A DNA stretch of 64,000 nucleotides from contig NZ_AP024469.1 of NCBI RefSeq assembly GCF_016865365.1, positions 1,479,001-1,543,000 of the forward strand, given 5' to 3'. This document shows positions 9,466-14,515 of this stretch, one piece after another; position 1 is the stretch's first letter; each line of letters opens with the position of its first letter. The stretch is from Geobacter sp. SVR. Its GTDB lineage: Bacteria > Desulfobacterota > Desulfuromonadia > Geobacterales > Pseudopelobacteraceae. The notes under the pieces were generated by a model. The model searched no databases. It saw nothing but the letters and a program-made list of their open reading frames with translations, and was not told the origin of the DNA. Both the position numbers and the translations under genes were made by a program.

Positions 9466-13689
<4,224 letters not shown>

Positions 13690-13703
13690 TCGTCGTTTCT
13701 TAG

Positions 13704-13744
13704 AGCCGGGGGCACAGCCAATGGTTGCGTCCCCGGCTTTTTTT
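13704..13744 (+). terminator. Intrinsic terminator after rpoC
   Basis: AGCCGGGG at 13704-13711 pairs with CCCCGGCT at 13731-13738, and the T run continues to 13744. It closes the rplK-rpoC region and separates it from the str promoters. Confidence 0.92.
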
Positions 13745-13797
13745 GATATCCTTTTCCGGAACACAGCAATAAAAAAACGAGACTGTAATTTTTTTTG

Positions 13798-13826
13798 TTG
13801 ACAATCGTCGCGTAGTCTAGTATCTA
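13798..13826 (+). promoter_or_regulatory. Sigma70-type promoter (distal) ahead of the str cluster
   Basis: TTGACA at 13798-13803 and TATCTA at 13821-13826 are separated by exactly 17 bases, inside an AT-rich stretch. Transcription would begin near 13833, just before the structured segment described next. It lies about 345 bases upstream of rpsL. Confidence 0.7.
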
Positions 13827-13832
13827 ATGTGT

Positions 13833-13991
13833 CTCATTTGAGATTGAGAGCCCAGGATGAAATGTGTCCTGCGACATGAATGGAGATGCCGGTGCGATTC
13901 CGGCCCTACACTTATTCCATTCCCCACCTCGTTTATGCGCCTTCGCGCTAGGCCGGCCTCAATCTCGAGCCACCAATTGAGTAAGCTTTTT
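13833..13991 (+). ncRNA. Candidate structured leader RNA upstream of rpsL
   Basis: A closing helix GAGATTGAG (13840-13848) with CTCAATCTC (13958-13966) encloses three internal hairpins. These are CAGGA/TCCTG (13853-13857, 13867-13871), GAATGGA/TCCATTC (13878-13884, 13916-13922) capped by GCCGG/CCGGC (13888-13892, 13900-13904), and GCGC/GCGC (13937-13948). The 3' closing strand can instead pair CTCAAT (13958-13963) with ATTGAG (13976-13981), followed by TTTTT at 13987-13991. That mutually exclusive design resembles a riboswitch or protein-binding attenuator. I do not recognise the family; pairing was done by eye. Confidence 0.4.
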
Positions 13992-14055
13992 GTGTGCCCG
14001 GTTGCCTGTTTGATGGGTTTTTTTGGTAATATTTGTGTGTAAGTTAAAAAAATGA

Positions 14056-14085
14056 TTGACATTCTGAAAATTTCTCTGTTATTTT
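14056..14085 (+). promoter_or_regulatory. Second sigma70-type promoter, proximal to rpsL
   Basis: TTGACA at 14056-14061 is followed by TATTTT at 14080-14085 (18-base spacer) in a very AT-rich segment. The leader from this promoter would be about 50 bases and contains a small hairpin (CACCC/GGGTG) before the rpsL ribosome binding site. The -10 match is moderate. Confidence 0.5.
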
Positions 14086-14143
14086 CATCGTTCACCCTGC
14101 TTGGGGTGGTAAAAATAATTTAAAGCTGGAGAGGTCGGGAAGT

Positions 14144-14515
14144 ATGCCAACGATTAACCAACTGATTCGTATGGGCAGAGAGAATAAAAGGGACAAGTCG
14201 ACAGCCCCTGCTCTGAAGTGTTGTCCGCAAAAGCGCGGCGTTTGCACGAGGGTCTATACTACTACCCCTAAAAAGCCGAACTCCGCTCTGCGTAAGGTTG
14301 CCAGGGTGAGGCTGACTAACGGGATTGAGGTTACCTCTTATATTCCGGGGGTTGGTCATAATCTGCAGGAACACTCCGTTGTTCTGATTCGCGGCGGCAG
14401 GGTCAAGGACCTTCCTGGTGTCCGCTATCATATCGTACGCGGCACGCTGGACTCGGTTGGTGTCAAGGGGCGCATGAAAAGTCGCTCCAAGTACGGCGCT
14501 AAGCGGCCGAAATAA
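14144..14515 (+). CDS. rpsL: 30S ribosomal protein S12
   Basis: S12 lies at the decoding centre and affects accuracy. The 123-residue product has the normal length, starting [20 protein letters not shown]. The streptomycin-related segments [19 protein letters not shown] and [17 protein letters not shown] carry the lysines typical of sensitive strains. The ATG follows GAGAGGTCGGGAAGT. It heads the str cluster. Confidence 0.98.

Follow-up and report, generated by a model that had tools for sequence, protein, structure and literature searches.

The interval between rpoC and rpsL

The stretch of DNA analysed here, referred to as the window, comprises 64,000 nucleotides of Geobacter sp. SVR (NZ_AP024469.1, positions 1,479,001 to 1,543,000, forward strand); coordinates below are those of the window. 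By NCBIfam, the gene order is rpoC, which ends at 13689, followed by rpsL-rpsG-fusA-tuf-rpsJ-rplC-rplD-rplW, and tightly spaced open reading frames continue on the + strand to approximately 32.7 kb. The gene run from the str to the S10 operon makes much of the ribosome. Between rpoC and rpsL lie a structured RNA and two predicted promoters, P1 and P2, arranged as follows.

13702-13740: terminator-like hairpin behind rpoC (-30.5 kcal/mol, z -6.5)
13798-13826, + strand: promoter P1, predicted from sequence (TTGACA at 13798-13803, 17-base spacer, TATCTA at 13821-13826)
13837-13969, + strand: structured RNA stretch (folding, comparison with relatives)
13840-13848, + strand: closing helix, 5' strand, extendable to 13837 (fold, coevolution with the 3' strand)
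13853-13871, + strand: peripheral hairpin 1, between closing helix and core arm (window fold, folds of 56 relatives)
13878-13922, + strand: core arm (fold, alignments, covariance model R1)
13921-13925, + strand: C-rich arm end, UCCCC (alignment of cores)
13931-13953, + strand: peripheral hairpin 2 (window fold; variable among relatives)
13958-13966, + strand: closing helix, 3' strand, extendable to 13969 (fold, coevolution)
13958-13990, + strand: alternative hairpin, CTCAAT...ATTGAG, then TAAGCTTTTT with five T (in the window; not conserved)
14056-14085, + strand: candidate promoter P2, proximal to rpsL (TTGACA, 18-base spacer, TATTTT; consensus scan and relatives)
14144-14515, + strand: rpsL, ribosomal protein S12, which opens the ribosomal protein gene run (NCBIfam)

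The hairpin behind rpoC was missed by a simple scan, owing to an internal loop or the size of its loop, and P1 was not listed by a consensus promoter scan because its -10 element is weak. Transcription from P1 is predicted to start near 13832-13834.

The structured RNA is real. RNAfold assigns 13838-13966 a minimum free energy of -47.6 kcal/mol, shuffled sequences averaging -33.3 (z -4.1; none of 200 shuffles as good), and the longer stretch 13833-13995 gives z -3.2, with one shuffle in 200 as good. The 9-bp closing helix (13840-13848/13958-13966) is continued inwards by GCC/GGC pairing at 13850-13852/13955-13957. Within the core arm, an outer helix (13878-13885/13915-13922) carries a small hairpin (13888-13892/13900-13904) with a T-loop-like loop at 13893-13899, as well as a conserved asymmetric loop, CCUACACUUA, at 13905-13914.

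An earlier, sequence-only reading of this DNA had proposed an unrecognised structured RNA ahead of rpsL, in which a 9-bp closing helix surrounds three hairpins just after a sigma70 promoter. The fold of 13838-13966 agrees with that description, and the predicted promoter elements TTGACA and TATCTA are present, the former kept in relatives, though the latter is weak. The RNA also remains without a family name: the sole match of Rfam 15 over the window is a tRNA at 1511-1584, a search of 13400-14300 at E up to 5 returned only a chance SNORD87 match (14055-14139), and the same element in twelve relatives gave three weak, unrelated matches at E up to 1. Promoter and covariation in related genomes, described below, complete the case for a structured RNA at this position.

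Two other identities were considered and rejected. The 6S RNA (RF00013) of this genome matches far away, at 3661838-3662016, with no match at the RNA itself; of 29 genomes searched, 23, this one included, have 6S RNA at another place. In each of two of the genomes, G100 and G101, three matches to 6S RNA exceeded the family cut-off. A small open reading frame led by ATG does cross the core in the window, but one-base indels are common among relatives: core length modulo 3 is 1, 2 and 0 in 34, 14 and 8 of 56 sequences, respectively, and thus no reading frame is kept.

Occurrence among the Geobacterales

Within the window's family, BLASTN with 13775-14143 as query matched 49 of 76 genomes, mostly over a core of approximately 50 bases at 80-94% identity. 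A covariance model of the central arm, R1, was built from 26 core sequences; its E-values are approximate, owing to a short calibration. At E <1e-9, R1 detected the element in 53 of the 76 family genomes and in 58 of 141 Geobacterales genomes overall, the additional five belonging to another family (genera g12 and g13). These strong matches occur in a single copy per genome, and 57 of the 58 lie directly upstream of rpsL in the same orientation; in the remaining one the contig stops before. The downstream gene is rpsL in 56 extracted loci, and in G050 by coordinates. Two carriers, G009 and G048, gave no match in the rpsL search, the element lying close to a contig end in both; the contig of the G009 locus (L071) holds just the start of rpsL.

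We could read rpsL in 103 of the 141 genomes, the other 38, some of them nearly complete and perhaps with masked or withheld stretches, being uninformative on absence. The RNA is present in 56 of the 103: in all 51 of the window's own family and in five of nine of family f3, with none in the two of f2 or the 41 of f4. In 19 of 30 loci, all from genus g4, rpoC is not found within 1.5 kb upstream, and the RNA still adjoins rpsL. The spacer between core and rpsL, and with it the distance to the rpsL ribosome site, varies from 157 to 262 bases, and no conserved pairing partner for the RNA was found in it by eye.

Wider searches with R1 yielded no credible further member, either in 277 genomes of the class (sole extra match G213, E 0.008) or in 395 evenly drawn genomes of the phylum (sole extra match G304, E 4e-4). 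Neither match is credible: both score far under the true matches (at least 46 bits) and have no str-operon protein near, and that of G304 sits within an open reading frame. Six weak matches within the order (L085-L090, E 0.02-0.09) were likewise set aside, being without rpsL. A pattern scan of 36 genome contigs separated 17 true matches (at least 46.7 bits) from 19 chance-like ones (at most 20 bits, of which five were not reported at E up to 1), and hits on seven viral contigs were all chance-like, at 23.1 bits or less. The records of the 17 true matches are labelled Geobacter, Geobacteraceae, Pelobacter, Trichlorobacter, Pelotalea, Desulfuromonadales, Desulfuromonadaceae or Deltaproteobacteria.

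Conservation of the core arm and the closing helix

The strictly conserved part of the arm consists of the outer helix, the small hairpin and the asymmetric loop GAU/CCUACACCUA, a core of aptamer-like character. Its constant elements read GGAG[A/C]UG, a hairpin, UAUUCC and the outer helix, and the strand following the core hairpin is most often CCUACACC (19 of 50 distinct cores). The CCC of the arm end is invariant in 26 aligned cores, with a single UCUCC variant among the 50. The window's 7-base loop, UGCGAUU, fits the T-loop pattern U-N-N-R-A-N-N, as do the loops of 35 of the 50 distinct cores. The resemblance to a T-loop noted in the sequence-only reading is thus borne out in the window and in most cores, but not as a requirement: at least four members (L021, L070, L071 and L072) lack it outright, the loop being replaced, and the T-loop is therefore not essential.

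Around the arm the RNA is more variable. Hairpin 13853-13871 is missing or substituted in one large genus, g4, where the RNA amounts approximately to closing helix and core with an extra hairpin, CCTC...GAGG, at the expected transcript start (L013, L017, L025 and L032, for example); the peripheral hairpins vary across relatives generally. The 5'-terminal hairpin is strong mainly in g4; over all 56 sequences, two of them with an empty stretch, the mean best value is -3.2 against -1.1 in shuffled sequence.

Alignment A1, of 26 distinct cores, shows standard pairing in 310 of 310 pair cells, with two-sided changes at four of 12 pairs and a covariation score reached by none of 500 shuffles. When the partners are shifted by one column, pairing falls to 66% or less, and RNAalifold recovers the same structure unprompted, together with an invariant G-U pair. 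Among the 50 distinct cores, four outer pairs were left free by the extraction pattern; all 200 of their 200 cells are standard, and three of the four pairs show two-sided changes to G-C or C-G. A tally of 595 standard pairs in 595 from the same 50 cores is left out as evidence because the hairpin and the inner outer-helix pairs are partly standard by construction of the script. G-U pairs occupy 12 of the 310 cells of A1 on the + strand; the same cells would be A-C on the other strand, and it is therefore the + strand RNA which is kept.

The closing helix offers the strongest case, by sequence comparison, for a structure under selection. Its letters are almost wholly changed among relatives while complementarity is kept, variants including TTTGAGATTGAG/CTCAATCTCGAG, GCGCGAC/GTCGCGC, CATCGCGCA/TGCGCGATG and GTACACTGATT/AATCAGTGTAC, among others. 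In 16 dissimilar sequences, true pairs of flanks averaged -16.4 kcal/mol against -12.5 for false pairs, a difference equalled in none of 20,000 permutations. In two of the 16 (L013 and L073) the best ungapped helix was unremarkable, 13 and 12 of 15 false partners doing better, and for L014, L076 and L077 three, five and five did better. A looser test of flank duplexes separated the two groups poorly (true -23.3, false -20.2, sd 5.1). The covariation of arm and closing helix supports the structured RNA that the sequence-only reading had proposed. As the shape is kept despite changed letters, the RNA very probably has a function in the cell.

Promoters, hairpins and the possible role of the RNA

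P1 is kept along with the RNA. The -35 element chosen in relatives is exactly TTGACA in 52 of 56 sequences, and in 54 a TTGAC[A/T] precedes the core by 65-92 bases; for the remaining two (L026 and L095) the script chose a nearer copy, and both do show the P1 -35. The predicted promoter P2 stands between the RNA and rpsL in 51 of the 56, and P1 is thus not needed by rpsL there. In the other five, from three genera, the P2 position has no TTGAC[A/T], which leaves P1 as the sole recognisable rpsL promoter. Twenty RNA-less genomes were also read: their rpoC-rpsL gap holds a TTGACA promoter resembling P2, and R1 scores there do not exceed 7.1 bits. The RNA and P1 may therefore be regarded as a module added (or lost) before an older promoter.

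No conserved terminator was found directly behind the RNA, in sets of 52 and 56 sequences. The sequence-only reading had suggested a switch by mutually exclusive pairing, in which the 3' strand of the closing helix instead forms a hairpin followed by T residues. This could not be upheld: the hairpin is not part of the minimum-energy fold of the window, and hairpin plus T tract occur in four of 52 sequences, the window included, against 2.4 expected with shuffled downstream sequence. T4 within 15 bases behind the closing helix was found in just two of 56 sequences, fewer than the 6.3 expected, and an intrinsic terminator is therefore lacking. Terminator-like hairpins do occur between the RNA and rpsL, in 26 of 56 sequences against 5.0 expected. 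Twenty-three of these stand just before rpsL and behind P2 (21 of them in genus g4), with three more elsewhere. From that position, attenuation of both P1 and P2 transcripts is possible. The g4 hairpin, GCTCC...GGAGC followed by a T-rich stretch, resembles a weak attenuator; a small hairpin behind the window's P2 (14092-14109) is without a T tract and folds no better than shuffles.

On these grounds the RNA is probably a cis-acting leader which binds a factor. The absence of a conserved terminator behind it, coupled with a ribosome site 157-262 bases off, favours a factor-binding 5' domain. The fuller proposition, of a new lineage-specific structured RNA family that heads the str-operon transcripts from P1, binding a factor and acting on elongation, processing or stability, is one that we hold at about even confidence. 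From the fold, its conservation, the promoter and the place of the element, we infer transcription, read-through, a partner and an effect along the following lines. By sequence comparison, the first 135 bases or so of the expected P1 transcript fold into a domain that a helix closes close to the 5' end; the transcript so headed would read through to rpsL and the genes behind. The conserved arm would bind a factor of the cell, most probably a protein from the apparatus of translation or transcription, and the amount of P1 transcript that gets as far as rpsL, or lasts that far, would depend on whether the arm is bound or free. The steps under control would thus be elongation, processing or decay, without recourse to a terminator nearby or a masked ribosome binding site. 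A narrower proposal, which is decidedly unlikely on present evidence, is a processive-antitermination or polymerase-loading element: the RNA being synthesised first from P1, its conserved arm would remain bound to the polymerase, or to a Nus-type factor, during elongation and carry the enzyme through the many ribosomal protein genes behind rpsL. Such an element would account for the 5'-terminal place, for the absence of an expression platform nearby and for a spacer to rpsL that varies in length.

In favour of the leader are P1 at a fixed distance, the two-sided pair changes, the G-U pairs specific to the + strand, the position beside rpsL in 57 of 58 genomes, kept where rpoC is no longer close upstream, the want of a conserved terminator behind the RNA and the five of 56 sequences without P2. 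Against it stand the prevalence of P2 (51 of 56) and its sufficiency in RNA-less relatives (20 loci), the lack of a conserved partner in the spacer, the terminator-like hairpins behind P2, the poor separation of the looser duplexes and the two unremarkable closing helices among 16. Several of these points lend themselves to the main rival, an independent noncoding RNA made from P1, its 3' end formed by processing or factor-dependent termination, which merely happens to stand beside rpsL. Such an RNA would have its own promoter at its 5' edge and its ends joined by a helix, as here, and the variable spacer and the separate rpsL promoter also fit it. However, T4 behind the closing helix in just two of 56 sequences leaves it without an intrinsic terminator, none of the 58 strong matches lies away from rpsL, and P2 is unrecognisable in five sequences; we consider this reading rather unlikely. 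That there is no RNA function at all, the fold being a chance one, a small open reading frame or a DNA element, is hardly credible: folding scores from a single genome are weak evidence by themselves, but covariation, strand-specific G-U pairs, a conserved promoter and the absence of a kept reading frame all speak against it.

The remaining alternatives assign the RNA a more familiar mode of control. A small-molecule riboswitch or attenuator, flipping between closing helix and terminator hairpin as the sequence-only reading had it, would suit a compact junction fold whose asymmetric loop is strictly conserved; the window does hold the alternative hairpin with its five T, and the terminator-like hairpin before rpsL in 23 of 56 sequences could serve as a remote platform. 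Yet the former is hardly commoner than expected (four against 2.4), the latter lies behind P2 and is confined to one genus in 21 of 23 cases, and no Rfam riboswitch matches, making this quite improbable. Still less probable is an autoregulatory ribosomal leader, bound by S12, S7 or another operon product through mimicry of its rRNA site. In its favour is that the RNA precedes the str operon in 57 of 58 genomes. As no small-subunit rRNA (RF00177) was matched in the single-contig genome of the window, E. coli rRNA served as a stand-in. The core hairpins of L031 and L032 resemble E. coli 23S 1944-1962 (none and eight of 200 shuffles as good, respectively). The other eight of ten cores did no better than shuffles against 16S and 23S (the best, L001 against 16S, having 18 of 200 shuffles as good), the resemblance falls in the variable hairpin of the core, R1 scores no higher than 8.2 bits anywhere in the rRNA operon of E. 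coli, and the RNA lies far from the ribosome binding site. Across the ten cores there was thus no consistent match to E. coli 16S or 23S rRNA.

The presence of the RNA in every readable genome of the family provides a concrete handle on how the Geobacterales control the str-S10 run, and as the arm ('P3-like') is small and strictly conserved, its binding partner can be sought directly. Should the RNA act on polymerase and not through a terminator nearby, it would represent an uncommon way of regulating ribosomal proteins. We found no paper in the open-access literature on this RNA; RNA motifs limited to Geobacter have been reported (PMC11109978), rpsL being absent from the main text of that report. 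It is, in short, an orphan structured RNA, restricted to one lineage and situated at a ribosomal protein operon, new to Rfam and to the open-access literature found.

Compared with known systems, the element shares with 6S RNA and other autonomous bacterial RNAs a promoter of its own and 5' and 3' ends closed by a helix. It differs in that a 6S RNA lies elsewhere in 23 of 29 genomes and that no intrinsic terminator follows the RNA upstream of rpsL. With riboswitches and T-loop aptamers it has in common a compact junction, a strictly conserved asymmetric loop and a frequent T-loop-like hairpin, but a conserved expression platform and an Rfam riboswitch match are wanting, and several members lack the T-loop. 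RNAs of processive antitermination, such as put of phage HK022 and EAR, are 5'-terminal structured RNAs at a variable distance from a long downstream gene run; the element has no positive sequence or covariance relation to them, their Rfam families are unmatched, and such a mechanism is conjecture here. The r-leaders differ in their setting, the present RNA lying 157-262 bases from its gene, with a second promoter between and neither consistent rRNA mimicry nor a local expression platform found, and the table of one survey (PMC7247131), as far as it was available to us, has no S12 or S7 leader. Like the r-leaders described there, however, it is a structured, covarying RNA that precedes an operon of ribosomal proteins within a single lineage.
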